Shown here piece after piece: positions 9,792 through 26,391 of a stretch of DNA of 64,000 bases (positions are counted from its first letter, which is position 1; every line of letters starts with the position of its first letter). The position numbers were made by a program, and so were the translations under genes. Below the pieces are notes generated by a model. The model had not been told where the DNA came from. It did not search any database and saw only the letters and a program-made list of their open reading frames with translations. This DNA comes from Candidatus Zhuqueibacterota bacterium (GTDB lineage Bacteria > Zhuqueibacterota > Zhuqueibacteria > Residuimicrobiales > Krinioviventaceae), in the NCBI GenBank assembly GCA_016934825.1, contig JAFGSB010000160.1:1-64000 (forward strand), in the 5' to 3' direction.

Positions 9792-11507
9792 TTAAAGATT
9801 TTTTGCCAGTACAACCGTATCCTGCACCCTGTCAATTTTTTGCCGCTCATGATTTTCGGCTTCGAGTAATATAATGTAAATTCCCATCCGGCAGGTTAAC
9901 CCTTCATCATCAAGCCCATCCCAAAATATTGTACCTTTTGATCCGCCCGGTTCATTATTTATTAAAAAACGGACCTGGCGACCCTGAATATCGAATATAC
10001 GGATGTTGAGATATGCCGTATGAGTATCCAATGTGTATTGGATCGCGGTCAAATCATCATGCCCATCTCCGTCGGGAGAAAAGGGATCGGGAGATATTGT
10101 TAAAGACGTTTTCGCGGGTAACACGGTTGTGAAAATACTGTTCTGAAAACCGGCCGTGTGCCCGGAAGCCCCAACCGAGGTGCCCCAGTTATTTTTCCGG
10201 TTGCCGGCTATGCCGGGATTGATCCTTTCCAGCGATTTACCTTTGGCGCCGCCCCAGCCCTGTTCATATAAAAGTTGTTCAATTATTGTGTGGACGCCGT
10301 CAAATATCGTTACGCCGTCCATATCATTGTTTAAAGAAGGCAAATTTTTGTTTATAAAAACCATCGCCCCCGGATCAAGCTGACTATATATTGCCGAATC
10401 CCTGGTAATGATTATAAATTCATAAGGATTTATAAACACGGATGTGTCACATAAAATTACGGCATTTGCCGTATCCTTATCGGATATTTTCCAGTTTTTC
10501 AGATTGACAGTGAAGGTGCCCGGATTATACAACTCGACCCATTCCGGCATGTCCGGTAACGGATTATACATAATTTCATTTATTATCAACGCCCGTTCAG
10601 GATAACCGGTTATTATTTCATAAAGACAGAGATTATTATCCGGGTTCCGGTCCAGCGGGTGGAAGGCGGCAAGTTTCAATATAAAAACGCCGGAAGGAAT
10701 ATCAGGCCAGGTTATTTTGACCTGTTCACTTTTAAAAGCGTCAATGCAAGGGATTTTTATCGTATCCCCAATCAAACAAAAAAATTCCGCGCCCGCAGTC
10801 TGATAAGCACAAACTACGGACACATCGTATAAAACAGTCATCCCGGCATTTTTTACATTTATAGAGATGAAACCTGTATCTCCATAACCCGGATTCTCCG
10901 GTTCCATTCGAAAGGATTCATTGTTTATCGCAATATCGTATTCTTCAGGGGTAATGGAATTTTTATATCCGGGCGTTCCGCCTTCGACAAGCGAATGTCC
11001 CCAGTTCGATTCATCATCGCCCTGCCCGGGTATTCGTTTTTCTTCAGAAATTCCTTCCGGATTGGGCACGTTATATGTCCATGAGGCGACAATAGTGGAA
11101 TCCGGTGTATATATCGAAACAGTTTCTTCCCTGTCGTTTGCCAGCCCATAAGAACCGAATAAAGAAGAATTTATCGTAAGTTTCAGCGCGGATTCGGGGA
11201 TAGTATTTTCATATTCACTGCTGTTTTCATAATAATTCGGCACAAGAACTACAGCATATTGAAGGGGCTGCAGGACAGTACTGCCACTGGAAGGTAAGAT
11301 GTTGTTATACTTTTCCCCGTCGCTTAAAAGCCAGTGGTCTAAATTGACAGAGTCACTGGCACTTGTATTATACAGTTCAATAAATTCGTTATATCTTTCA
11401 TTGCCAAGCGGATTGAACATAATTTCTGATAAAATAATTTTCGCCGAGAGAGAGACCGGATATAGCAGTGATCCGCTAATTATAAGAATGATGTTAAAAA
11501 TTTTCAT
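9792..11507 (-). CDS. Exported lamin-tail-domain protein with FlgD-like C-terminal domain
   Basis: The 571-residue protein begins with a signal peptide (IFNIILIISGSLLYPVSLSA). Two lamin-tail domains are visible, starting at ILSEIMFNPLG (about residue 25) and INEIMYNPLPDMPEWVELYN (about residue 310); between them lies an Ig-like segment. The last 100 residues are an FlgD-type Ig domain (ISPDPFSPDGDGHDD, then GTIFWDGLDDEG), widespread at the C-termini of proteins exported by FCB-group bacteria. The role is probably extracellular or cell-surface, binding rather than enzymatic, as no catalytic domain is seen. It lies 29 bases downstream of the YihY-type gene on the same strand. Confidence 0.82.
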   Translation of the reverse strand: MKIFNIILIISGSLLYPVSLSAKIILSEIMFNPLGNERYNEFIELYNTSASDSVNLDHWLLSDGEKYNNILPSSGSTVLQPLQYAVVLVPNYYENSSEYENTIPESALKLTINSSLFGSYGLANDREETVSIYTPDSTIVASWTYNVPNPEGISEEKRIPGQGDDESNWGHSLVEGGTPGYKNSITPEEYDIAINNESFRMEPENPGYGDTGFISINVKNAGMTVLYDVSVVCAYQTAGAEFFCLIGDTIKIPCIDAFKSEQVKITWPDIPSGVFILKLAAFHPLDRNPDNNLCLYEIITGYPERALIINEIMYNPLPDMPEWVELYNPGTFTVNLKNWKISDKDTANAVILCDTSVFINPYEFIIITRDSAIYSQLDPGAMVFINKNLPSLNNDMDGVTIFDGVHTIIEQLLYEQGWGGAKGKSLERINPGIAGNRKNNWGTSVGASGHTAGFQNSIFTTVLPAKTSLTISPDPFSPDGDGHDDLTAIQYTLDTHTAYLNIRIFDIQGRQVRFLINNEPGGSKGTIFWDGLDDEGLTCRMGIYIILLEAENHERQKIDRVQDTVVLAKNL

Positions 11508-13071: not shown

Positions 13072-14055
13072 ATGATTACAAAAAAACTTGGCTGGACCGA
13101 TCTTGACTTTACCCGAATCGGTTTGGGTACCTGGGCGATGGGCGGTCCTGAATGGCAGTTTGGATGGGGTCCGCAGGATGACAAAAAATCTATCAAAACA
13201 ATATATAAAGCCCTGGATAACGGCATAAACTGGATCGATACGGCGGCCGTATACGGACTCGGTCATTCCGAAACCATTATCGGCAAGGCGCTGAAAGGAA
13301 TGGGCCAAAAGCCGATTATCGCCAGCAAATGCTCGCGGGTTTGGAACGAGAAAAAGGAATTGGGTTCCAATCTGAAACGTGATAATATCCGCAAGGAGTG
13401 TGAATCAAGCCTGAAACGTTTGCAAATAGAAACCATTGATCTGTACCAGATACACTGGCCCAGACCCGAGGAAGATATTGAAGAAGGCTGGGGCGCTGTC
13501 GCCGAGTTGATCAGGGAGGGCAAGGTCCGATACGGCGGCGTATGTAATTTTAACGTTCGTCAGCTCGAACGTATTCTGCCGATCCATCCGGTCGCGTCGC
13601 TGCAGCCGCCTTACAGTATGCTGGTTCGTGGCATTGAAAACGAAATTTTACCTTTCTGCGGCGAAAATAATATCGGCGTGGTCGCTTACAGTCCGATGTA
13701 CAAAGGTTTGCTGACCGGTAAATTCACCAGGGAACGCGCTGAAAATTTGCCGGAATCCGACCACCGCTGCCGCGACCCGCGTTTTATGGAACCTGAATTG
13801 ACTCTTAACCTGCATCTGGTGGAGGAACTGGAAAAAATAGCCGGGGACAACGGTAAAACCGTATTGCAGTTGGCCATTGCCTGGGTGCTGCGCCACCCGG
13901 AAATGACTTCCGCGATTGTCGGCGCCAGAAAACCGGAACAACTTGATGATTTCTTCGGCGCGGCGGACTGGACACTTTCCGGGGATGACGTCAATAAAGT
14001 GGAAATGCTGCTGAAAGAACGTGAGGAAAAACTGGATAAAATAAAAAAGGAATGA
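13072..14055 (+). CDS. Aldo/keto reductase
   Basis: The 327-residue protein is a full-length NADPH-dependent aldo/keto reductase with the (beta/alpha)8 fold. The catalytic tetrad is visible: D56 and Y61 in WIDTAAVYGLGHSE, K86 in IIASKCS, and H128 in LYQIHWP. Coenzyme-binding residues appear in the C-terminal SAIVGARKPEQ segment. It belongs to the subgroup related to sugar-aldehyde and general stress protein 69-type enzymes, but the substrate is not evident. It is a single-gene unit ending in a hairpin shared with the convergent receptor gene. Confidence 0.9.
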   Translation: MITKKLGWTDLDFTRIGLGTWAMGGPEWQFGWGPQDDKKSIKTIYKALDNGINWIDTAAVYGLGHSETIIGKALKGMGQKPIIASKCSRVWNEKKELGSNLKRDNIRKECESSLKRLQIETIDLYQIHWPRPEEDIEEGWGAVAELIREGKVRYGGVCNFNVRQLERILPIHPVASLQPPYSMLVRGIENEILPFCGENNIGVVAYSPMYKGLLTGKFTRERAENLPESDHRCRDPRFMEPELTLNLHLVEELEKIAGDNGKTVLQLAIAWVLRHPEMTSAIVGARKPEQLDDFFGAADWTLSGDDVNKVEMLLKEREEKLDKIKKE

Positions 14056-14082
14056 TTTGAATTATTCCAAACCATTCCTTTT
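14045..14082. terminator. Bidirectional terminator between convergent genes
   Basis: AAAAGGAATG (14045-14054) pairs perfectly with CATTCCTTTT (14073-14082) around an 18-base loop. Each arm supplies a T or A run, so it can serve both the aldo/keto reductase gene and the TonB receptor gene on the other strand. The stem includes the reductase stop codon. Confidence 0.55.
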
Positions 14083-14101
14083 CTAAAATATTAAGGATTT
14101 A

Positions 14102-16315
14102 TTACAATCTTCCCTTTAATCCCGCCGTGAATGTTCGCATGGGCATCAGGTTGCTTTCCCGGGGCGCGTAATTGTAATTCAATAGATTAACCACGCCCAG
14201 TTGGATCGTAAAAAGACTGATGTCGTAGTCCAGGCGCATGTCTACAAATTTCATGGGAACCCTGTCGTTGATGGGATATATTTTGACTTCGGCTATTTCA
14301 CTGGCGTAGCGGTAATCCGCCTGGAAATTGAAATTTTTCACTTTGACGGATGTTTTGACGGTCGCCAGCACATCGGGACGATAGGTCAGGGGTTCATGGT
14401 ATTTCATGTCTTCATGGTCCATATATGTCAGGCTTGCCTGGATGCCCGGCGTCCAGTTCAATCCCAGTAAATAAACCGGGTAACTGAAATTGGTCGTCGC
14501 TTCCACACCCTGGATCCGGGCGCGGGGAATATTGCGGAACTGTATTTGTCCCCTTATCAGGTCCAGATGCGCCTCGATGAGTTCCCAGTAATCGTTCAGA
14601 AATACCGATACGTCCACATTCCAGTCCCTGTTGATGTACTGCCGGATTCCGACATCATACGCCCATGAGCTTTCGGATTTAAGCGCCGGGTTGGCTTTGA
14701 TTTTGAAATTCATGATCGAGTGTTCGAGGAACCGCTCGATGATCGTTGCGGCGCGGAACCCACTGCCGACTGACATTCGTAAACTGGTCTTTTCCCACGG
14801 CTGCCAGTTTACGCCGAAACGCGGACTGAACAGGTCCTCTTTTAAACCGCCGATTAATTTGTAGCGGTCATAACGTAAGCCGGTCGTGATCCTGAGGTTA
14901 TGACGGGTTTTCCATTCATCCTGAATAAAGGGACCGAGGAAATATCCTTCATGCTTGCCGAAATACTTTGTGCTGCCGGAATCATCCTGGTACTGCAATC
15001 CAAAAGTTACAACATGTCCGGGATATGGGATCCAGTCCGCCTGTATTTCGCCGCCTTGTCCGTATGCGGGATTAAAATCCGCTTCCCTGCCGAACTGGTT
15101 GCCAAGCAACGACCGGTTCATGGAGGCGCGCGCGTTTATCGCGAAACGAGAGGAGAACGGCACCGCCAGTTTGGTGTACAGGTTAAGCTGATTGACCTTG
15201 CCGCGGTTTTTTAGGTTGGTCACATCCACTTCGTAGGGATCGTTCTGGCCTTTCCACTGCACGAAAAATCCCTTGTTGATTTTGCTGTAAGCAGAATAAA
15301 CCGTCCATTTGATGCCGTTATTAAAACGATAATCCGCTTTTGCGGTTAAATTGTATTTGCGGAAATCACCCAGGACGGTATAACCGGTGGAAAAAAACCG
15401 CCCGGCAGACACACGAAATCCCAAATTCCCTAACCGTTTACTGTAACTGATGTCCTCGCGGGTGTAATGCAGCCGGTTCGGGTCCGTCCATTCCCATTCG
15501 CTGTAATACGGTTTGTCGTATTTCCCTGCGGCAAAGGCAAACAACAATTCGCCTTCCGGTTTGGGGTCTTTGGTGATGATATTCACCACCCCGCCCAGCG
15601 CGGACGAGCCCCACAGGGTCGAACCGGCGCCTTTCAGCACCTCGATCTGTTCGATGTCCAGCGGCGGCAGCATGTCCCAGTTAAACGCGCCGGTATCGCT
15701 GGCGTATACCGGAACGCCGTCCAGCAGCAGCAGGGTTTTGTTCCCGGCGCCGAAGGTAAAGCCGGTCGAGCCGCGGATATTGATCTGCTCGCCGATAAAA
15801 TTGACCCCCGGCGCGGTTTCCAGGGCTTCGATGATGCTGGTGGGATTCCGCTGTTCGATGTCCTTGGATGTAACGACGGACATGGAGACACTCGCTTCAT
15901 CCAGTCTCTGCTCCATTTTCCCGGCCAATACGACAATCGGATCATATTCCAGGGTGGTTTCCTGCAGAGTGATTTTCAACTCTGTTTCACGATCGGCCAG
16001 AACTTTAACGTCGGCGATAGAGACCGTACGGTAGCCGATCATCGAAGCGCGCAGCGTATATGTACCCGGCGGCATTTTTTTGATCACAAAATGACCGTCC
16101 GCGTCCGCGCTGGCGCCTCGGACTGTACCCTGCACGACGATATTCACGGCCTGCAGCGGTTCGTTGCTGTCGGCGTCTGTTACCGAGCCTTTGATGGTGC
16201 CGGTAATGGCGGCCCATGCCGGAGGTGAAATAAAAATAAAAAGGTTAACAAGAAAAATTATAACGGACAAATTTTTAAATTGTATAGTCAAAGTCGCTGA
16301 ATCATTTTTATTCAT
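14102..16315 (-). CDS. TonB-dependent receptor with carboxypeptidase-regulatory N-domain (copy B)
   Basis: The 737-residue product is an outer-membrane TonB-dependent transporter. A signal peptide (SVIIFLVNLFIFISPPAWA) is followed by a CarboxypepD_reg-like beta-sandwich with GSVTDADSNEPLQAVNI, about residues 40-120. Next comes the plug (VVTSKDIEQRNPTSII, then IEQIEVLKGAGSTLWGSSA) and a beta-barrel ending in a C-terminal strand. I chose the ATG at 16315: a GGAG lies eight bases before it and it overlaps the upstream lipoprotein stop by eight bases; an ATG 30 bases further upstream has no such site. The substrate is unknown. It is a paralogue of the receptor at 20807-22948; both share a late motif (ADYRY, then IYP, then VP) near the C-terminus. 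It is not a SusC type: it is shorter and has no SusD partner. Confidence 0.92.
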   Translation of the reverse strand: MNKNDSATLTIQFKNLSVIIFLVNLFIFISPPAWAAITGTIKGSVTDADSNEPLQAVNIVVQGTVRGASADADGHFVIKKMPPGTYTLRASMIGYRTVSIADVKVLADRETELKITLQETTLEYDPIVVLAGKMEQRLDEASVSMSVVTSKDIEQRNPTSIIEALETAPGVNFIGEQINIRGSTGFTFGAGNKTLLLLDGVPVYASDTGAFNWDMLPPLDIEQIEVLKGAGSTLWGSSALGGVVNIITKDPKPEGELLFAFAAGKYDKPYYSEWEWTDPNRLHYTREDISYSKRLGNLGFRVSAGRFFSTGYTVLGDFRKYNLTAKADYRFNNGIKWTVYSAYSKINKGFFVQWKGQNDPYEVDVTNLKNRGKVNQLNLYTKLAVPFSSRFAINARASMNRSLLGNQFGREADFNPAYGQGGEIQADWIPYPGHVVTFGLQYQDDSGSTKYFGKHEGYFLGPFIQDEWKTRHNLRITTGLRYDRYKLIGGLKEDLFSPRFGVNWQPWEKTSLRMSVGSGFRAATIIERFLEHSIMNFKIKANPALKSESSWAYDVGIRQYINRDWNVDVSVFLNDYWELIEAHLDLIRGQIQFRNIPRARIQGVEATTNFSYPVYLLGLNWTPGIQASLTYMDHEDMKYHEPLTYRPDVLATVKTSVKVKNFNFQADYRYASEIAEVKIYPINDRVPMKFVDMRLDYDISLFTIQLGVVNLLNYNYAPRESNLMPMRTFTAGLKGRL

Positions 16316-17177
16316 TGATATGACTCCAATCAGCATGAATTTCAATTCCGGAAATGGGTTTGTCGGGTTTTGGCTTTAATTCCACGGGAGTTCCCGGATT
16401 GTTGGGGTCTTCATAAAAGCCCAGGGTTTTAAAATCGTCCAGGCCGGAACGGTCCGACAACCAAAAGACAGCCAGGTATCGAACAGTACCTTTTCCATCG
16501 ACGGGCAGTTTAAAATGATATGGATTTTCATCAATACTAAAATCCATGGATTTTAAATATATAAGATAATCGATTTTCATTTCCGGTTTTTTAACATAAG
16601 CGCCAATAGCCGTCGCCAGGGTATTCCCGGGAATCGGTCCGTTAAAATAGATCGTCCCTTCAATGTATGTGTTACGTTCCACCCTGTTCAGATCGGCCCA
16701 CATATCCGTTGTATGAACAGGTTCTTCCGGTGTGATATCAAATTCGTAAGGTAAATAATTATTGCCGATTTTTAAGGAAAACACATCCGCCAGATTCGAT
16801 TCCGTGGTTTTGTTATACCACCACAATCCGATCGCCTCATAATGACCGTAAGGCAGATCCATTTCGGTATGAATCGTGTCCGCCCCAAGCGGCAAACTGT
16901 TGGGACTGAGATATAATTCATTTATCGCGTGCGGGGGGAATTTCGGCGCGACAAACAGGTAAACACCTTCCGTGTTTTCAGGGATTTCCGGGTTGAAAAA
17001 CATCACGTCCAGTTCCAGTTTGCCGGGAAGAGGAGCAATACCATGATCGTCGCCGCAAGACAAACACAGCAGAGCAAAACACATTATACCGACAGCAATT
17101 TTTCCAATTGTAAAAATTTTAACACCGGCGATCAGTCTGAATTTTTGTCGCAACTGATTTTTCATAAAGACCTTCAT
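16308..17177 (-). CDS. Outer-membrane-type lipoprotein paired with TonB receptor (copy B)
   Basis: The 289-residue protein has a basic N-terminus, a hydrophobic stretch and a lipobox LLCLSC giving a lipidated Cys near residue 42. The first about 20 residues before the hydrophobic core are unusually long, so the true start may be internal. I recognise no named domain. The C-terminal segment (VRYLAVFWL, later LGFYEDP, ending in ADWSHINE) is similar to the end of the lipoprotein at 22969-23433 (LVAAVWK, LGFYGFDP, CDWSILPE), so the two are probably paralogues. Its stop overlaps the receptor start by eight bases, indicating that the lipoprotein and receptor act together, perhaps in ligand capture. 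Confidence 0.75.
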   Translation of the reverse strand: MKVFMKNQLRQKFRLIAGVKIFTIGKIAVGIMCFALLCLSCGDDHGIAPLPGKLELDVMFFNPEIPENTEGVYLFVAPKFPPHAINELYLSPNSLPLGADTIHTEMDLPYGHYEAIGLWWYNKTTESNLADVFSLKIGNNYLPYEFDITPEEPVHTTDMWADLNRVERNTYIEGTIYFNGPIPGNTLATAIGAYVKKPEMKIDYLIYLKSMDFSIDENPYHFKLPVDGKGTVRYLAVFWLSDRSGLDDFKTLGFYEDPNNPGTPVELKPKPDKPISGIEIHADWSHINE

Positions 17178-17251
17178 GTATTTAAACAGAAAATTTTAAA
17201 ATGGATATTTATTGTTATTGGAAAATTCAGATGTTTTCACGTTAGCAAATG

Positions 17252-17278
17252 TGCGGCGTATCCTGACGATACGCCGCA
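17252..17278 (-). other. Perfect 11-bp hairpin between cassette genes
   Basis: TGCGGCGTATC (17252-17262) pairs without mismatch with GATACGCCGCA (17268-17278) over a five-base loop. It lies just downstream of the exported-protein gene ending at 17287 and upstream of the lipoprotein gene starting at 17177. Neither side has a T tract, so it is not a standard intrinsic terminator. It may stabilise the 3' end of the upstream message or tune read-through between the two halves of the cassette. Confidence 0.7.
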
Positions 17279-17286
17279 GACATTTA

Positions 17287-19032
17287 TTATCGTACTAAAA
17301 TTAATTTTTTATGTAATGATTGTGCCCCGGCTTGTAACTGATAGAAATAAATTCCGGATGGTACTTCTTTACCCAGTTCATCTGTACCGTTCCAGTGGAA
17401 TTTATGTATGCCCGAAGTGTAAAAACCCTGTGTTAAATTTTTAACCAGCCGGCCGTTGGTGTCATAAATTTTAAAACTAATGTTTTCAGCCCGGGGTAGA
17501 ACAAAGCTGAATTGAGTCGAGTTGTTGAATGGATTCGGATAATTTTGCGCAAGGGCAAAAATCAGCGGTGCAACCGTATTATTTTCTCCCTCGACGTCGG
17601 TTATGATATTGCTGCCGATTTTTACCGGATTGGCAAGATTATATGCAAGGTTTTCGGCAAAAGATTTTGATTTATCTTTCTCCGGCATCATGTAAATGTT
17701 ATAATCCAGTTCAAAGACGATAGTATCGCTAACCGATGCTTTGAATAAAACACCGTTATCGCTGTATGAAACTTTATCACCGGTATCATTTATATCAAAA
17801 ATATGTTTATCGGCCGTTCCGCCATTTTTATTATCAAAATAATAGAGAAAAATTGAATCCCACTTGGTATTGGCAAATTCTCCATAGGTAAATAGAGTGC
17901 CCTGATTACCTGTAGCCATGCTCCACACATTAATCTTTTGGGACGGGTCTGCAGGAATATCAACTTTTTTATCAATCTGATCCTGATTTCCATCTACAGG
18001 TATATTATCATTGTGTTTTGTGAACATTTTCATACCGGACGATTTTTGATTCAGGTCCCATGAAAAACGCAAGTCCGTTAATTTAAGTTCAACACCTTCT
18101 CCCATATGTTTCTCCAGAGCATCCGGTGTCAGGGTGTCGCCCCCGGCAATTGTCCCGCTAAACGGATAGAATTTCGTGTCAACTTTGAAGAAATTAGCAA
18201 CCTCGACGATTCCCGCTATTTCAAAATTAAAACTTGTTGACCGGATTATCCTGACAACCGGCTCCTGTGTATAATAGAGTCCCGCACTGACCAACACTTC
18301 TTCGTTTAAAGTTATGGGTAATACAAGAAATGTATTTATCACCCCTTTTATTCTTGCTTTCAAACGATCCAGTATGTCTTCTCCACTCCCTCCGGGTGTT
18401 TTTATTGTAATTCCTTCAACCAAGCCGGGACTGCTGAAAGTAAAATTATAATAAGCGGAAGAAACGGTGGAGGTTCCTGCATTATATGACATATTATAAG
18501 GCTTTGGGACATCTTCTTTTTTTAATGTAGATGAGCGGTATAAGTAGATATAGGCTTTTTTATCAGAATCATTCGGATCGGACAAAATAATTTCCAGTCT
18601 GTCGTTTTTCTTTGCCGCTTCGTCATCGATCCAACAGTTGTCCGGCGCCTTGTCGCCCATGTCTTTGATCATAAACACCAGTTCGTCGTGGTCATCAAAT
18701 ATACCGTTGTGTTTCAGGTGCTTTAACGAATCAATATTTGCCCATACTTCATCAAAATAATACCATTTTTTCTCTCCAGATCCACTCAGAGGGTCAGTGC
18801 CAAATGTTCTTTCGTCGATCTGGAACGGGATCATGCTCCAGGTTCCGGCTGGACTGTTGTAAGCGTAAGCGAAAATTTCATTAACAGGTACATCTATAAA
18901 TCCTTTTACTTCCTGGGCGGTAAAAACCGCCGGTTCATATTTGCGGTCTTCCTGTAAAGTCCCGGCCGTCAATACAGACCGGCTCAATAAAATGACCATT
19001 ATTATTGTTAACATTGTTATTAAATTTTTCAT
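17287..19032 (-). CDS. Large exported protein with type IX-style sorting tail (copy B)
   Basis: The 581-residue protein starts with a signal peptide (LITMLTIIMVILLSRSVLTA). The central part has no domain I can name. It shares with its neighbour at 19110-20774 a pattern of PFQ-D-E, then DDHDELVFMIKDMGDKAP-like Asp-rich segments (about residues 110-130), and a later GGTAD, then GDKVSYSD, block near residue 410. The last 85 residues are a sorting tail beginning LAQNYPNPFNNSTQF and containing FHWNGTDELG and PSGIYFYQL, as in proteins exported by FCB-group type IX systems. It is probably secreted or displayed on the surface and may bind the ligand handled by the receptors. Function unknown. Confidence 0.8.
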   Translation of the reverse strand: MKNLITMLTIIMVILLSRSVLTAGTLQEDRKYEPAVFTAQEVKGFIDVPVNEIFAYAYNSPAGTWSMIPFQIDERTFGTDPLSGSGEKKWYYFDEVWANIDSLKHLKHNGIFDDHDELVFMIKDMGDKAPDNCWIDDEAAKKNDRLEIILSDPNDSDKKAYIYLYRSSTLKKEDVPKPYNMSYNAGTSTVSSAYYNFTFSSPGLVEGITIKTPGGSGEDILDRLKARIKGVINTFLVLPITLNEEVLVSAGLYYTQEPVVRIIRSTSFNFEIAGIVEVANFFKVDTKFYPFSGTIAGGDTLTPDALEKHMGEGVELKLTDLRFSWDLNQKSSGMKMFTKHNDNIPVDGNQDQIDKKVDIPADPSQKINVWSMATGNQGTLFTYGEFANTKWDSIFLYYFDNKNGGTADKHIFDINDTGDKVSYSDNGVLFKASVSDTIVFELDYNIYMMPEKDKSKSFAENLAYNLANPVKIGSNIITDVEGENNTVAPLIFALAQNYPNPFNNSTQFSFVLPRAENISFKIYDTNGRLVKNLTQGFYTSGIHKFHWNGTDELGKEVPSGIYFYQLQAGAQSLHKKLILVR

Positions 19033-19109
19033 TTTTTATCCCTCGCATTTTAAAATGTTCATGTCTTTTACAACAATATATACTATTTCTTTGTTCCATT
19101 GCAACAAAT

Positions 19110-20774
19110 TTATTTGACGATTAAAATTTTTCCGCTCAAAGAATCCTGCGCGTTGTACAACCGGTAAAAATACATTCCGGGCAGAACCAGCGCGCCGTTT
19201 TTGTCCCGGCCGTCCCACAGAACGGTTCTTTGAACTTCCATTAACGCGGTAATATTGTTAAATTTTCTGATTTCCTGCCCGAGGATATTATACACTGTCA
19301 GGCCGTAATCATCGCGAAGTTTTTCGCTTATAAACCGAAATTTCAGGGCTCCGCGTTCGTTATTATAGGGATTGGGAAACGGCTGCAACAACCGGAAAGT
19401 AGCCGGGATATAACTTTTCTGTTTTTTGACCAGTGTCGTGTTATAGTTTTGTAAGATCGCGGTCAATTGATACGGATTGCTTTCCCAGACCTGTAATTTA
19501 TCTCCCCATTCCGCGGCGTCCTGACTCAGGTCCTTATTGATGAAATAGACGGTAAAATTGACATCCAATAGACTGGCTTTAATCGCATCGCTGGTGGACT
19601 GAATGTAAACACCCATATCGCTGAAGGATTTACCGTCTCCGGTATCTTTCGTTCCGTCGGCCGAACCTCCGGCGCTGTTATCGTGATAATACAGGTATAC
19701 GTTTGCGTTTTCGACCTGCGGCATTTTGATGAATACGAGAATGGTTCCCTGCCGGCCTGTGGCCATAACCCAGTTCAAAGCATTGGGATTGTCGATATCC
19801 GATACCAGGCTGTCAGGGATGCCGTCGATATTTATACCGTCCCTGTTTTTTTGCGAGAAAAAAAGCATACCCTTGCTTTCCGGTGACAGATCGAAGGAAA
19901 GCCGGATCAGTTTCACGCCGATTAATCCGGCGGCAACACCTTCCACAGGCAGATTCACTTTGCCGGACACGGAATATGGAAAATATTGTAATTTCGGATC
20001 AAAACCTTTTTCCCCGACGATGGGCAGATCAATCTTTGTGCGCACGTCCCGGAATGTTCTGACCTGGCCCAAAAAAGGGGAAACCGGATTGGATTGCGGT
20101 GATATACTGTTTTCGTCAATATTATAAGACTGGCCTAAAAAAGTTTTACCCGCAAAACGGAGTTTTAACCGGTCCATCAAATCGGTTTTAACCTCGGGCG
20201 CAAAACCGACATGATTAAAAAAGCCGTTGTCGGCGTGGCCCAGTATAAAATCTTTAGTCTTGACCGTATCGGCGGCCGAATTAGTATTGGGCGGCGGAGA
20301 ATAGCTGAAATAACTTTTTACGATCGGCGGATTGTTGACATTTTTGAACAGGTATATCCAGCCTTTTTTGGATTCATTTAGGGGATCACTGACAGTAAGT
20401 TCGATGCGGGGCGATTGTTCGGGATCGATAATGTCCACCCACGCGGATTCCGGGGCCCGGTCGCCGAGGTCTTCCGGCATGAAGACGATTTCATCATTGT
20501 TATCGATTTTGGGATCAAATTGATCATTGCTTTCATCATGTTCATAGTTGCCCGGAGTTTTTACCTCATCCACCTGGAACGGGACGGCTTTCCAGGTTTT
20601 TGTTTGCGCGTTATATGAATAAGCCAGCCAGTCGTTTTTATCCATCTTTAAAATAGGTTCATCAAGATTGCTCAGGATAATGGGTACATACTGACGGTCC
20701 AGGGTTTTGTCCTGTGAAAAGGCCTGTAAGGCAGCCAATAATAAAACGACTAAAATCAGATATATTTTTTTCAT
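19110..20774 (-). CDS. Large exported protein with type IX-style sorting tail (copy A)
   Basis: This 554-residue paralogue of the next gene has a signal peptide (KIYLILVVLLLAALQAFS) and mature start near QDKTLDRQYVP. The shared Asp-rich block is DNNDEIVFMPEDLGDRAP, near residue 95. A second shared block, YLYYHDNSAGGSADG, occurs near residue 365, where the acidic and Gly residues suggest metal or carbohydrate contacts (inference). The tail begins LLQPFPNPYNNERG and ends GMYFYRLYN. I chose the ATG at 20774, which has GGAA eight bases upstream, over an in-frame ATG 12 bases earlier with no such site. It follows the receptor gene by 32 bases. Confidence 0.8.
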   Translation of the reverse strand: MKKIYLILVVLLLAALQAFSQDKTLDRQYVPIILSNLDEPILKMDKNDWLAYSYNAQTKTWKAVPFQVDEVKTPGNYEHDESNDQFDPKIDNNDEIVFMPEDLGDRAPESAWVDIIDPEQSPRIELTVSDPLNESKKGWIYLFKNVNNPPIVKSYFSYSPPPNTNSAADTVKTKDFILGHADNGFFNHVGFAPEVKTDLMDRLKLRFAGKTFLGQSYNIDENSISPQSNPVSPFLGQVRTFRDVRTKIDLPIVGEKGFDPKLQYFPYSVSGKVNLPVEGVAAGLIGVKLIRLSFDLSPESKGMLFFSQKNRDGINIDGIPDSLVSDIDNPNALNWVMATGRQGTILVFIKMPQVENANVYLYYHDNSAGGSADGTKDTGDGKSFSDMGVYIQSTSDAIKASLLDVNFTVYFINKDLSQDAAEWGDKLQVWESNPYQLTAILQNYNTTLVKKQKSYIPATFRLLQPFPNPYNNERGALKFRFISEKLRDDYGLTVYNILGQEIRKFNNITALMEVQRTVLWDGRDKNGALVLPGMYFYRLYNAQDSLSGKILIVK

Positions 20775-20806
20775 AGTTGTTTCCATTCAATAATCATACC
20801 AACAAG

Positions 20807-22948
20807 TTAAAAATTGCTGCTCACTGAAAATCCGTAATTGCGAATTTCTCCCAGAACTCTTTCGGATACCGTATAATTATAATTCAGTGCATTTTTAATC
20901 ATAAATTGAAATTTAAACGACGACCAGTTGTAGCTCCAGCGTAAATCCCATACTTTGGTCGGCACCTGTTCGTCCAGCGGATAAATTGCCAGTTTTCTTA
21001 GTTTGCTCATGTAACGATAGTCCGCTTCAAATGTAAAGGCTCCGTAATAAAAAGCAGGTGAAAAGTAAGCGATAAATTTTGGCCGGTACGGCAGCGGCTC
21101 GTTTGATTCGAGTTCTCGCGGGTCCATCCAGGTGGCGGACGTTTGCAGCCGGATATGATCGCGCCATAAATCCCAGCGTAATTCGGATTCAATTCCCCGT
21201 ATACGGCCTTTGGGATAATTTAAAAACAGCGCCGTCAAATCGGAGCGGAGTGTGGGTTCGATCAAATTTTTATAGCTGCTGGAAAACAGGGTCGCTTCCG
21301 CGTAAGCGGTTTCGCCGATGTTCTGACGCACGCCCAAATCGAACAATGTCGACCGTTCCGGCTGTAAATCCGGGTTGGGCAGCGCTTTAAAATCTTTTGA
21401 ACCGGCGGTTATAAATCTTTCAACCACTGTCGCCGCGCGAAAACCCCTGCCAATCGAGAAATGGATTATCGTGCCGTACCACGGCTGGTAGCTGCCGCCG
21501 ATTTTTGGACTTAACTGCATTTCAACCGAATCCCCTACCAGAGTATAGGTGTCAAGTCTTAAACCCGCGTTCAATTGCAGCAGTTCCGAAAATTTCCAGA
21601 TTTCCTGCAGGTAAGGCGATATACCGTTTGCCCGTCGTTTACCGTAATATTTGGATTCGACCTGGTCATATTTATAATCCACACCCAATGACAGGCTGTG
21701 GTCCCGGTGCGGTTTCCAGTTTACCTGCATTTCGCCGCTCAGTCCTAACGCCGGAGTGAATGCGCCGGTTATATTGAACGGTATACCGACAAGCTGCTGG
21801 TTGTACGACACCCTGATCTTTGTCGACAGTGTCGGCGAGAACAGTTTATTGAATACCGCGTAACCCACATATCCGTCGATAGCATAAGAATTCCCCCGCT
21901 CGGTTGGCGGAACGTTCAGGGCCCTGTCCTGTTCCATCCATTGTAAAAACAGTTCCCTGTCCTCTTTGCTGTAAGTGGAGAACAGGGATAGTGTTGACTG
22001 CCCGGGCAGTTGAATATGGGTTTTACCGGTAAAATACCAGCGTTCAAAAAAGCCGTTTTCCCGGTCGCCTGTGGACCGGTGATGCGACACGGCCAGCCGC
22101 AGACCCACCGGGCCGAATGTGTCGGTCAGGCTCAGGTCGGTCCGGGTATAGTATAAAGTTTTGTCCGTCCATTTCCATTCCGGCACAGACGGGTTGTCAT
22201 ATATTCCTGAGCTTTGCCGGACTGACAGGCCCGGTTTACTTCCGGGCATTTTGGTAAATATATTGATCACGCCGCTTATCGCACCGGAACCGTACAGGGA
22301 TGACGCGGCGCCTTTTAACACTTCTATATGCTCGATTTCGGTAACCGGCAGAATATTCCAGTTAGCGGCGCCAAGATCGCTGGTCAGGATGGGCACGCCA
22401 TCCAGCAGAACCAGTGAACGGCTGCCGCCGAGCCGGTTATACCCGGACCCGCCGCGTATGTTAATATTTTCGCCGACAATAGCAACGCCGGGAACGCTGA
22501 GCAGCGCCTCATCGATGCGCATGTTGTTGCGGCGTTCGATTTCATTGTAACCCAGGATATTTATGCTTGAAGCAGCGGAACTCAGTGTCTCGGGCTGCCG
22601 CGAGCCGGTGATAATGATCTGTTCGGATTGTAGCGTGGTGGGTTCAAGATTAAAATTTACAGTAATCGTCCGGTTCTGTTTGACAAGAATCGGTTGCGCG
22701 GCGGCTTTATAACCGATGTAACTTGCTTTTAAAGAGTAGGTCCCGGGCGGTACGGAGATAATAAAATGGCCGTTTGCGTCGGTACTGGCGCCAATAAATG
22801 TGTTTTCGATGAACACATTGGCCCCCGGAAGCGACTCGTTATTGTCCCCGGATCGAACCACACCTTCGACAAGACCGGTTATTTTTGCCTGTGCGGTTAC
22901 GATCAATAACAGTAATATGATTATTTTTAATTTGAGAATTCTGTACAT
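20807..22948 (-). CDS. TonB-dependent receptor with carboxypeptidase-regulatory N-domain (copy A)
   Basis: The 713-residue outer-membrane receptor has a signal peptide (LKIIILLLLIVTAQA), a CarboxypepD_reg-like domain (VEGVVRSGDNNESLPGANV to about residue 105), a plug (ERRNNMRIDEALLSVPGV, then IEHIEVLKGAASSLYGSGA) and a barrel with a typical terminal strand. It transports an unidentified ligand using TonB energy. It follows the lipoprotein gene by 20 bases and precedes two exported sorting-tail proteins. It is a full-length paralogue of the receptor at 14102-16315. Confidence 0.92.
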   Translation of the reverse strand: MYRILKLKIIILLLLIVTAQAKITGLVEGVVRSGDNNESLPGANVFIENTFIGASTDANGHFIISVPPGTYSLKASYIGYKAAAQPILVKQNRTITVNFNLEPTTLQSEQIIITGSRQPETLSSAASSINILGYNEIERRNNMRIDEALLSVPGVAIVGENINIRGGSGYNRLGGSRSLVLLDGVPILTSDLGAANWNILPVTEIEHIEVLKGAASSLYGSGAISGVINIFTKMPGSKPGLSVRQSSGIYDNPSVPEWKWTDKTLYYTRTDLSLTDTFGPVGLRLAVSHHRSTGDRENGFFERWYFTGKTHIQLPGQSTLSLFSTYSKEDRELFLQWMEQDRALNVPPTERGNSYAIDGYVGYAVFNKLFSPTLSTKIRVSYNQQLVGIPFNITGAFTPALGLSGEMQVNWKPHRDHSLSLGVDYKYDQVESKYYGKRRANGISPYLQEIWKFSELLQLNAGLRLDTYTLVGDSVEMQLSPKIGGSYQPWYGTIIHFSIGRGFRAATVVERFITAGSKDFKALPNPDLQPERSTLFDLGVRQNIGETAYAEATLFSSSYKNLIEPTLRSDLTALFLNYPKGRIRGIESELRWDLWRDHIRLQTSATWMDPRELESNEPLPYRPKFIAYFSPAFYYGAFTFEADYRYMSKLRKLAIYPLDEQVPTKVWDLRWSYNWSSFKFQFMIKNALNYNYTVSERVLGEIRNYGFSVSSNF

Positions 22949-22968
22949 ATAAATTGAACCGTTATGCT

Positions 22969-23433
22969 TCAGTTATTCTGTTTTTCCGGCAATATCGACC
23001 AGTCGCAGTATATATCGATATTTTTTGCAACGGGCTGTTCTTTTGTTAAAACAACTTTGACGCTGTCGAAAGTAAAATTGACCGGATCAAATCCGTAAAA
23101 GCCTAAAATTTTCGAATAATTCCAGGCTTGCCCTTTTTCTTTCCAAACAGCGGCCACCAGTTGATAAGTTGCCAGCGGCGCCGGCACATAATAATCCGGT
23201 TCGTCCTTGCTTAAATTGACAGATGTATTTGTAAAGACCACATCTCCCAGACTTTGCGGCGGCAGATTAACGGCGGCGACAATACGTACGGATTCCACAT
23301 AGTCCGGTTTTTTGTCCTGATTCAAAAAAATAACCCTGCCGGTTATTCTCGAATCCAGCGTCCCGAGTCCGTGATCGATTTCACATGCTGTGATTAAAAA
23401 CAATATAAATAATAGGGCTAAAGTTTTTCTCAT
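22969..23433 (-). CDS. Small lipoprotein paired with TonB receptor (copy A)
   Basis: The 154-residue product has a classic lipoprotein signal, with TLALLFILFLITAC placing the lipidated Cys at residue 17. The mature part begins EIDHGLGTLDSRITGRVIF, a beta-rich start. The C-terminal 60 residues resemble those of the longer lipoprotein at 16308-17177. It leads the six-gene minus-strand cassette; a promoter candidate lies about 35-63 bases upstream. No named domain is recognised. Confidence 0.75.
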   Translation of the reverse strand: MRKTLALLFILFLITACEIDHGLGTLDSRITGRVIFLNQDKKPDYVESVRIVAAVNLPPQSLGDVVFTNTSVNLSKDEPDYYVPAPLATYQLVAAVWKEKGQAWNYSKILGFYGFDPVNFTFDSVKVVLTKEQPVAKNIDIYCDWSILPEKQNN

Positions 23434-23697: not shown

Positions 23698-24786
23698 TCA
23701 GGTGCGCGAAAAATTGACTTTGATTTGCGGTATCTTTTCACCGTTGGCATTTTCCAGGGATGACAGGATAAAGGGCCGTTTTTCTTTGGTATAACGTCTC
23801 ATATTCGGATTGAACTCAATGTACCCCAAATATATAACATCGATCATTAAAAGTTGTTTCAATTTCCCTTTAAAAGCGCTGGATTCCCTTGCCTCCAATT
23901 TATTATAAACCATATTGGAAATTATTTTCGGTTTAAATCTCTGTATGACGGCCATAAATACGGCGCCGGCGCGGGGATCTTTCATTAATATTTTGTCAAA
24001 AATGGGTCTTAATGGTTTATCATATTTTACCCAGTCCCAGTTTTCAAATTCCTTGAGTTTTTTCATGGAATAATCACTGAAATTGAGCGACTTGTATAAT
24101 TTTCTGAGCAGGCAACTGCGGATAAAGTTAAAAGAGTCCATAAAAGAAGTGGGTTCCGGAATGGTAATGACAATTCCCTCATCGCAGGAGATAAAGATAT
24201 CCACAGTTTGATACGCCACTCCCGGGCTCAGATCAACAAAAACAAAATCAGAATCCAGGGTATGCAGTTGACGTAAAAATTTTAAACGTTTAAAGAATTT
24301 CGGGGTAGAAAATGCGATATTACCCACTTCACCGCTGATCAATTTAACATTTTTATATGGCGTGTCGATGAGTAAATGCTCAAAAGTAATATTACGGTAA
24401 GTAAAAAATGAATTCAAAGTGATAGACGGACGGCTTACGCCCATCCACTCATGCAGATCCGGTCCGCCGAAATCAGCATCCACAACCACGACTTTTTTAC
24501 CTAACTTGCCGAGTTCGATAGCCATTGAGGCCGTTAAAGCGGTTTTCCCGACACCTCCCTTGCCGCTGGCGAAAGCGACGACTTTGGCCCTCTTCTTTTT
24601 GCTTTGTAATTCTTCGAAATACGGGCGAAATCTTTCGTAATTGCCCAGCCGGGTCCAGGTATTATCTTTCACATCCCATATCAAATCCTGGGCTGTTGAT
24701 ACACCATCCTGGATTAACCGTTTTGCGTCTTCGGGAGATAACGGCCCGTATTGAAATTGAGGTGTTTTTATATATATCTTATCCAT
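23698..24786 (-). CDS. MinD/ParA-like P-loop ATPase with N-terminal GYF_2-like domain
   Basis: The product is 362 residues from the ATG at 24786, chosen for the AGAAGGAAG site upstream; an in-frame TTG 30 bases earlier is the alternative. Residues about 1-55 look like a GYF_2 domain (FQYGPLSPEDAKRLIQDG, then DLIWD and TWTRLG). The MinD-type ATPase follows, with the deviant Walker A ASGKGGVGKTALTAS near residue 75, switch I-like VVVDADFGGPDLHEWMG, and Walker B-like DFVFVDLSPGVAYQT. The C-terminal part resembles flagellar/MinD-like proteins such as FlhG. It likely positions a complex at the membrane or pole; no partner is adjacent. It is a single-gene unit on the minus strand, upstream of the divergent tRNA cluster. 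Confidence 0.83.
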   Translation of the reverse strand: MDKIYIKTPQFQYGPLSPEDAKRLIQDGVSTAQDLIWDVKDNTWTRLGNYERFRPYFEELQSKKKRAKVVAFASGKGGVGKTALTASMAIELGKLGKKVVVVDADFGGPDLHEWMGVSRPSITLNSFFTYRNITFEHLLIDTPYKNVKLISGEVGNIAFSTPKFFKRLKFLRQLHTLDSDFVFVDLSPGVAYQTVDIFISCDEGIVITIPEPTSFMDSFNFIRSCLLRKLYKSLNFSDYSMKKLKEFENWDWVKYDKPLRPIFDKILMKDPRAGAVFMAVIQRFKPKIISNMVYNKLEARESSAFKGKLKQLLMIDVIYLGYIEFNPNMRRYTKEKRPFILSSLENANGEKIPQIKVNFSRT

Positions 24787-25078
24787 AGGACACAATACTT
24801 CCTTCTGTTTGTACAAATATTTTATACAATAATTGTTCCACAGAATAAAATATTTTGTATGATATAAAATTATATATAAATTCTATCTAATACTAACGTT
24901 TTTTTCTAAAACAAGCAAATAAAATCGATAATTTATGTTGAATTAAACAAAATTTTATTTGAATTCGGGCATATTAAAATGTAAATTAAACGGTTAACAG
25001 ATAATTTAATCCATTATTTTGTTTACTTTAGGGGACAATGAAAAAAACTTTACACAATTTTCCCGGTTATGAAAAAAG
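24787..25078. other. AT-rich divergent intergenic region
   Basis: Between the ParA-like gene and the tRNA promoter the DNA is strongly AT-rich. I see no open frame with a ribosome-binding site and no RNA fold. It presumably holds the promoter of the minus-strand gene. Confidence 0.5.
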
Positions 25079-25136: not shown

Positions 25137-25209
25137 GGCGCGTTCGTCTAGGGGTCTAGGACGCTGGCCTCTCACGCCGGTAACACGGGTTCGAATCCCG
25201 TACGCGCTG
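25137..25209 (+). tRNA. tRNA-Glu (anticodon CTC)
   Basis: A full cloverleaf of 73 bases. The acceptor arms are GGCGCGT and ACGCGCT with one G-T pair at the first position. The anticodon stem CTGGC/GCCGG closes the loop CTCTCAC with anticodon CTC. The T arm is ACGGG-TTCGAAT-CCCGT. The discriminator is G and no CCA is encoded. It is the first gene behind the promoter at 25079. Confidence 0.93.
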
Positions 25210-25232
25210 CTCTGATATATATGCAGGAATAC

Positions 25233-25306
25233 GCGCCCGTAGCTCAATTGGATAGAGCGTCTGGCTACGGACCAGAAGGTTGGGGATTCGAGTTCCTCCG
25301 GGCGCG
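25233..25306 (+). tRNA. tRNA-Arg (anticodon ACG)
   Basis: A 74-base cloverleaf with acceptor GCGCCCG/CGGGCGC, anticodon loop CTACGGA (anticodon ACG) on stem TCTGG/CCAGA, T loop TTCGAGT, discriminator G, and no encoded CCA. A34 of this tRNA is the usual bacterial target for conversion to inosine by TadA, whose gene starts 26 bases downstream. Confidence 0.93.
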
Positions 25307-25331
25307 CAATAACTTACGGCACTAATGATTT

Positions 25332-25805
25332 ATGGAAGACCACAAAAAGTGGATGCGAATTGCCCTCCAGGAAGCGAAAAAAGCTTTTAAAAAACTGGAA
25401 GTGCCGGTGGGTGCGGTGATAGTTCATGAAGGGGAAATAATCGGAAAAGGCTATAATCTTGTGGAAACTCTTCATGACCCGACCGCGCACGCAGAAATGA
25501 TGGCAATAAGCGCCGCATCTCGATCACTGGCCTCGTGGAGACTGGACGATTCAATCCTGTATACAACCCTGGAACCGTGTTCGATGTGTACAGGCGCCAT
25601 TTTATTGTCAAGAATTTCAACCGTTGTATACGGCGCTCCTGATCCCAGATACGGAGCATGCGGTTCAGTTCTGCAGATCGCTGATAATGAAAATCTGGAT
25701 ATTAAAGTTAAAGTGATCGGCGGAATACTGAAAGACGAATGCAGTACAATTTTAAAGGATTTTTTTTCACAAATCCGGCAAAAAAACGAAAAATTATTTG
25801 ATTAA
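25332..25805 (+). CDS. tadA: tRNA-specific adenosine deaminase
   Basis: TadA converts A34 of tRNA-Arg(ACG) to inosine so that one tRNA reads CGU, CGC and CGA. The 157-residue protein has the deaminase zinc site: H53 and catalytic E55 in TAHAEMMA, and C83/C86 in EPCSMCTGA. The N-terminal part (MRIALQEAKKAF, then VPVGAVIV) also fits the family. It lies inside the tRNA cluster, between tRNA-Arg(ACG) and the tRNA-Ser genes, and no terminator separates them, so it is probably co-transcribed with its substrate. Guanine deaminase-like relatives are the alternative, but the length and context favour TadA. Confidence 0.95.
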   Translation: MEDHKKWMRIALQEAKKAFKKLEVPVGAVIVHEGEIIGKGYNLVETLHDPTAHAEMMAISAASRSLASWRLDDSILYTTLEPCSMCTGAILLSRISTVVYGAPDPRYGACGSVLQIADNENLDIKVKVIGGILKDECSTILKDFFSQIRQKNEKLFD

Positions 25806-25808
25806 TAT

Positions 25809-25893
<85 letters not shown>

Positions 25894-25914
25894 CTTTTAT
25901 ACATAAATGATAAT

Positions 25915-26001
25915 GGAGAGGTGTCCGAGTGGCTGAAGGAGCACGCTTGGAAAGCGTGTGTAGGGTTATCTCTACCGCGGGTTCGAATCCCGCCCTCTCC
26001 G
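25915..26001 (+). tRNA. tRNA-Ser (anticodon GGA)
   Basis: An 87-base class II tRNA. Acceptor arms GGAGAGG/CCTCTCC, anticodon stem CACGC/GCGTG with loop TTGGAAA (anticodon GGA), a long variable arm, T arm GCGGG-TTCGAAT-CCCGC, discriminator G and no CCA. It differs from the preceding tRNA-Ser mainly in the anticodon arm and variable arm, as expected for related isoacceptors. Confidence 0.92.
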
Positions 26002-26036
26002 CTTGATATGTTTTTATAGGGATTGTTTTTTTATCA

Positions 26037-26109
26037 GGGGCCGTAGCTCAGTTGGGAGAGCGATACGTTCGCAACGTATAGGTCGTGGGTTCGACTCCCA
26101 TCGGCTCCA
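26037..26109 (+). tRNA. tRNA-Ala (anticodon CGC)
   Basis: A 73-base cloverleaf with acceptor arms GGGGCCG/CGGCTCC. The third pair is G-T, the G3-U70 identity element of tRNA-Ala. Anticodon stem ATACG/CGTAT, loop TTCGCAA (anticodon CGC), T loop TTCGACT, discriminator A and no encoded CCA. Confidence 0.93.
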
Positions 26110-26206
26110 CAGGTCTTTATGTTTGTGTGTTTGACTTTGTTGAGACTTACCGTTTGATTTGTTGATGTGAATTTAATTATGTAACATCAAACCAGGAAGA
26201 CTAATA

Positions 26207-26303
26207 AGCCAGGCCCTGCGCAACAGATGCGTACCCAACCCCGTCAGGATCGGAAGATAGCAGCGGTAAGTACTTAATCTGTGTGCCGCAGGATCACCTG
26301 GCT
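26207..26303 (+). ncRNA. ffs: Small bacterial SRP RNA (4.5S type)
   Basis: The RNA scaffold of the signal recognition particle, which binds Ffh. The signature GTCAGGATCGGAAGATAGCA at 26243-26262 matches the conserved domain IV internal loops and the GGAA tetraloop. Outer arms AGCCAGG (26207-26213) and CCTGGCT (26297-26303) pair perfectly, and the next segments (CCTGCG with CGCAGG) extend the rod. The length of about 97 bases indicates the small form without an Alu domain. It lies 88 bases before dnaX, as in the well-known ffs-dnaX-ybaB-recR arrangement. Confidence 0.93.
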
Positions 26304-26391
26304 ATTTAAACACATTTATAATTCATGTTACAATTAGTTTGAATTTTCTTTCTAAAATCCTGCAAAGATAAAAAATCCGTAGAGTGATAAT

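Follow-up and report, generated by a model that had tools for sequence, protein, structure and literature searches.

A duplicated lipoprotein, TonB-dependent receptor and type IX-exported protein locus in Zhuqueibacterota, a possible outer-membrane uptake system

What is the function of a compact run of six genes that form two related sets of a lipoprotein (Lp), a TonB-dependent receptor (R) and an exported protein (E) in a bacterium of the uncultured phylum Zhuqueibacterota (KSB1)? The genes occupy positions 14102-23433 on the minus strand of the window, i.e., the whole 64,000-nucleotide stretch of DNA analysed here, in the order Lp2-R2-E2-E1-Lp1-R1. Our leading answer, which we hold tentatively and at slightly less than an even chance, is a two-copy, lipoprotein-assisted TonB-dependent outer-membrane uptake system of KSB1, in which E is displayed by the type IX secretion system (T9SS) and the likeliest ligand is a carbohydrate. 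The features of the locus are given below in gene order.

22969..23433, minus strand: Lp2, single-domain lipoprotein of 154 aa, with a Cys followed by an E-I-D-H-G motif; homologous to Lp1
20807..22948, minus strand: R2, TonB-dependent receptor of 713 aa with CarbopepD_reg_2, Plug and barrel; partnered with Lp2 in relatives
19110..20786, minus strand: E2, exported protein of 558 aa, consisting of the E core and a T9SS type A tail
17287..19032, minus strand: E1, exported protein of 581 aa, with a core at ~28-476 (N-terminal domain and beta-supersandwich) and a T9SS type A tail at ~498-579
17252..17278, minus strand: perfect 11-bp hairpin without a T-run, between E1 and Lp1
16308..17177, minus strand: Lp1, two-domain lipoprotein of 289 aa with an invariant Cys41
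14102..16345, minus strand: R1, TonB-dependent receptor of 747 aa when called from TTG
14042..14085, minus strand: long, A/T-rich, terminator-like hairpin just 3' of R1, from a consensus scan only

The first-pass annotation, made from the sequence, had described six consecutive minus-strand genes in two sets, the second of them permuted in order. The open reading frames indeed sit where it had placed them, and Lp2-R2-E2 stands against E1-Lp1-R1. Gaps along the run are 20, 20, 77, 109 and -38 bases, and the true start of R1 is probably an internal ATG and not the called TTG. When the window was compared with its genus mate (L059), codon position 3 changed 2-6 times as frequently as position 2 in all six genes, its divergence lying far above that of positions 1 and 2; thus, the six open reading frames are real genes under purifying selection. 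Identity between the two genomes was highest for the receptors (80% and 75%) and lowest for the exported proteins (54%). The hairpin at 14042..14085 is likely to mark the end of the transcript. At the E1/Lp1 site, the genus mate carries a terminator-like hairpin with a T-run, matching the hairpin of the window. Since a hairpin separates E1 from Lp1 in both genomes, E may be produced more abundantly than Lp1-R1, as far as a consensus-level hairpin observation can be read.

The two sets are paralogous throughout, as had been proposed: identity was 28% over 585 columns for E1 and E2 (E 7e-54), 38% over 701 for R1 and R2 (E 4e-161) and 24% for Lp1 and Lp2 (E 1e-10). One correction concerns the lipoproteins, namely that Lp1 has two domains and Lp2 has one. 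The C-terminal half of Lp1 gave a second Lp2-like match (E 1e-5), and Lp1 is a tandem duplication of the Lp2 domain.

Lp and E are nearly universal in the phylum. The contig of the window was itself assigned to KSB1 on the strength of its named relatives. Of the 82 KSB1 genomes searched, 74 have Lp and 76 the E core, and each was present in 46 of the 49 genomes of high quality. The first-pass annotation had proposed looking for co-occurrence of the three genes, and the Lp/R/E triad was found repeatedly across KSB1. For 40 of the 53 best two-domain Lp matches in the 60 nearest genomes, the gene immediately upstream is E, in the same orientation, with a median gap of 58 bp. The other 13 lie on contigs without a listed E match, some of them short or with Lp near the contig end. 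The co-directional order Lp2-R2-E2 ... E1-Lp1-R1 is seen in the window, in L059, L063, L065, L067 and L071, and in others. E2 and E1 are direct neighbours in the window and in its genus mate; in other families, one to four genes lie between them. The only frequent additional gene in the scanned loci encodes a D-serine-dehydratase/alanine-racemase-like PLP enzyme, which lies between E2 and E1, directly before E1, in six loci (L060, L063, L066, L067, L068 and L071).

The exported proteins carry the sorting tails that had been claimed for them. Matches to the T9SS type A model (TIGR04183, cut-off 23) reached 46.1 bits for E1 and 28.3 bits for E2, and the SprA translocon is encoded in the same genome (contig G000:C13), so that E has both the sorting domain and the genomic T9SS of a type A cargo. 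What sets it apart from known cargo is its core, as the ~450-residue E core had no Pfam match beyond chance among 47 members and, sorting tail aside, no sequence match among PDB chains. At the level of sequence, the E core is a new family, not found in the databases searched. The shared blocks that had been noticed in both proteins (DE-VFM, D-GD-AP and GG-AD) are conserved columns of this family. The statement that the exported proteins could not be assigned to a known family is therefore right for sequence, in that no characterised family was matched, but not for fold, which is a recognisable, PL26-like beta-supersandwich.

This fold was seen in a confident AlphaFold model of E1 (pLDDT 89), whose core comprises an N-terminal domain and the beta-supersandwich. 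The closest solved structure is the PL26 exo-rhamnogalacturonan lyase (PcRGLX; Z 16.7 over 326 residues, rmsd 4.4 A), and the superposition covers model residues 24-480, corresponding to the first two PL26 domains. Endo-fucanases, mannosidase and galactosidase domains, a PL4 lyase and aldose epimerases follow at Z 12-14. Foldseek alone gave low TM-scores (0.27-0.35), so the match to PL26 is one of domain arrangement and not a close copy. In a profile comparison, the start of the supersandwich was aligned with seven KSB1 PcRGLX proteins at a score of 29.5-32.6, against at most 24.9 for 120 shuffled templates and 16.3 for the reversed one, although the reported probability was only 5-8%; this weakly supports a distant common origin of the E core and PcRGLX. 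However, none of the 47 E members matched the PcRGLX Pfam domains, PF19501 matches being found elsewhere in KSB1 and none on E genes, and the third PcRGLX domain is missing, its place after residue ~480 being taken by the T9SS tail. Moreover, the beta-supersandwich also occurs in non-glycan proteins in the structure comparison, e.g., YidC, and a common fold with PL26 is no proof of a common substrate.

Eleven polar residues (Q71, D73, Y163, K225, E244, R322, S324, D326, D419, S422 and D425) are invariant in the 47 E cores, which come from several phyla, and this suggests a putative ligand or catalytic site. According to the DSSP line of the E1 model, K225 and R227 share one strand face, and R322, S324 and D326 likewise lie together on theirs.

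E is also found apart from Lp. Some KSB1 genomes of one family (f9) have E without Lp (G025, G038, G047 and G059), and so do genomes named Acidobacteria, Sulfidibacter, Anaerolineae/Caldilineae, Marinimicrobia and Gemmatimonadetes, where names of metagenome-assembled genomes can mislead: the 'Calditrichaeota' L114 matches identically to a member of the window's own family. In Chloroflexota the E core is rare (4 of 251 genomes, three of them weak). E cores also occur in longer proteins of 650-1340 aa. No common neighbours were recognised by eye around the solo E genes. Tandem or solo E cores away from Lp-R were noted at L153:6420-10490, L154:6331-10084 and L051:5907-8594, and in L153 and L051 they come after a short STAS-like (anti-sigma-antagonist-like) gene. 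Because E cores occur alone elsewhere, E is independent of Lp-R, also in its biochemical role. One could imagine E1 and E2 as adhesin- or coat-type proteins of the surface or matrix, co-transcribed with the transporter genes and otherwise outside uptake. Solo E cores, their presence in long proteins or in tandem pairs, and the hairpin between E1 and Lp1 would all fit. Nevertheless, we consider this improbable, as E is strongly linked to Lp (40/53) and its invariant charged residues look more like a site than like part of a scaffold.

In our preferred reading, an uptake system, the receptors are the import step. R1 and R2 are TonB-dependent transporters of ordinary size, with CarbopepD_reg_2, Plug and barrel domains and matches to PF07715 and PF00593 well above the cut-off in both. 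SusCD is the precedent for lipoprotein-assisted TonB uptake of glycans, a strategy known mainly from Bacteroidota, and the KSB1 locus recalls it in having a TonB receptor with an N-terminal CarbopepD_reg_2 domain beside a lipoprotein and a surface protein of carbohydrate-enzyme fold. The differences are larger: the receptors have only ~710-750 aa as called and reach 126 and 120 bits where the SusC model (NCBIfam TIGR04056) has its cut-off at 368, matching in the N-terminal region only; the lipoproteins are all-beta, judged from the Lp1 model, and unmatched to SusD; the locus has no recognised CAZyme; and E is exported by the T9SS and not lipid-anchored. Receptor score and lipoprotein fold rule out membership of SusCD, and the earlier remarks that the receptors are not SusC and the lipoproteins not SusD were correct. 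BtuB identity was rejected as well (TIGR01779, 118 and 116 bits vs 600), as was haem-receptor membership, the scores being far under the cut-off. The closest NCBIfam models for R1 and R2 are haemin/B12-type receptors, every one of them below its cut-off, and the same holds for all named receptor families shown.

In a maximum-likelihood tree of 41 receptors, all 34 Lp-linked ones form one group (support 98/99), separate from the seven others, in a set that was picked by Lp adjacency and whose outside receptors are few, mostly long-branched and, in six of seven cases, from the window's own genome. The R1 and R2 clades are each supported at 100/100, and R1, R2 and R3, the receptor of a third Lp-R lineage, are separate lineages.

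The lipoproteins belong to no family that we could name. Lp1 and Lp2 matched no Pfam or NCBIfam family, and 22 Lp1-type homologues gave no credible Pfam match, SusD included. The AlphaFold model of Lp1 is confident (pLDDT 87) and shows two small beta-sandwiches, for which Foldseek and VIA returned no convincing fold relatives (best Z 7.1, one domain). Judged by these searches, Lp is a new small-lipoprotein family, absent from the databases used. The vitamin B12 system BtuB-BtuG, an ordinary-size TonB transporter with a lipoprotein lid (PMC10404256), offers the same combination of partners as R-Lp, whereas Lp1 has its two sandwiches and a D-H-G motif after the Cys, has no detected relation to BtuG, and stands in a locus without a B12 riboswitch.

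Lp-R pairs without E have other neighbours. The third Lp-R lineage adjoins a FadL/TodX porin, in many cases close to a regulator of TetR type (L136 and L138-L142), and in the window's own family M49 and M3 peptidases come after it. In the window's own genome (contig C139, L136:6162-14636) this pair is co-directional with the porin, an M49 peptidase lipoprotein and an M3 oligopeptidase. Another pair (L144) adjoins an M20 peptidase. In Neomarinimicrobiota, where Lp matches were weak (16 of 199 genomes), a single-domain Lp, in some cases with a C-D-H-G-L motif, directly precedes an R-like receptor (L179-L183), and Marinimicrobia Lp-R pairs come after a GDSL lipase-like lipoprotein. By eye, carotenoid-desaturase-like genes adjoin an Lp-R pair at L185:3686-5200 and L186:9080-10672. 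Lp-family proteins of 550-600 aa, apparently with several tandem Lp domains, were seen at L142:8382-10037 and L143:6541-8337.

These neighbours bear on two further readings of the transporter. The same architecture could serve a small molecule or peptide (haem, corrinoid, metallophore or oligopeptide), which E would concentrate and Lp-R import in the manner of BtuG/BtuB. The haemin/B12-type models nearest to R1 and R2, the ordinary size and high conservation of the receptors, and the M20, M49 or M3 peptidases beside some Lp-R pairs speak for it; but no Rfam riboswitch was found in the locus or in six relatives, metal, haem and ABC-transporter genes were not recognised beside it, and the E fold is typical of carbohydrate enzymes, so we regard it as unlikely, if a serious competitor. 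Import of lipids or hydrophobic compounds, with E stripping or presenting them at the surface, draws on the porin and the regulator often found near it, the GDSL lipase-like protein and the predicted hydrocarbon degraders within KSB1 (PMC11683472). Against it, no lipid genes were recognised beside the R1/R2 loci, and R1, R2 and R3 are separate lineages whose ligands may therefore differ; we judge it to have only a small chance of being correct.

We return to carbohydrate uptake. E1 and E2 would leave the cell through the type IX system and be displayed at its surface; there, their beta-supersandwich core would bind an external ligand, with a carbohydrate as the likeliest candidate, and might also cleave it. 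Lp, acting as a capture lid on or beside the receptor, would take over the product, and R would import it with TonB energy. The computed basis is gene content, paralogy, phylum-wide linkage, the Lp-linked receptor clade, the sorting tails, the T9SS translocon and the predicted folds; from these we infer that Lp lies at the surface, that it forms a complex with R and that E hands over to it, as well as the ligand class and the earlier reading of an 'uptake or binding system'. Carbohydrate may be taken as a leading guess only, favoured because of the E fold. No CAZyme domains were found in the six operon proteins or two scanned neighbours, and neighbourhood clustering gave no recurrent CAZyme neighbour. 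Receptor identities of 60-80%, together with near-universal presence, fit a common nutrient better than they fit the variable kind of locus used for polysaccharide utilisation. Three observations keep small-molecule, peptide and lipid ligands in play, namely that CAZyme neighbours are missing, that the receptors are highly conserved, and that the sister pairs have the neighbours described above.

The KSB1 system falls outside SusCD, BtuB-BtuG and PL26, and most likely works in the manner of lipoprotein-lidded TonB transport. A bolder version, which we find doubtful though conceivable, would make the E core an undescribed surface carbohydrate-active family (with a PL26-like scaffold that lacks the third domain and acts as a lyase or hydrolase) and Lp-R an undescribed family of lipoprotein-lidded TonB transporters, together a core uptake machine of KSB1 parallel to and independent of SusCD. 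If a separate, T9SS-partnered lid family is indeed near-universal in this uncultured phylum, the FCB group would have more than one version of the strategy. The locus also adds two protein families that lack database entries, and it offers a concrete way of finding out what KSB1 bacteria import. Our literature search found nothing on KSB1 and T9SS, or on TonB and type IX secretion combined, and neither TonB nor secretion comes up in the Zhuqueibacterota paper (PMC11683472).

Some features of the surroundings may be added. The gene next upstream of the operon encodes a ParA/MinD-like ATPase with an N-terminal GYF_2-like domain (window 23698-24816, minus strand), and the genus mate also has it upstream. 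On the other side, the gene at 9792-11507 (minus strand) encodes a protein in which two lamin-tail domains (LTD) are combined with a weak T9SS-like tail, and it stays close to the operon in the genus mate as well (L059:17592-19295). At 25137-26306 on the plus strand, five tRNA genes and then the small SRP RNA stand just ahead of a DnaX-like gene.
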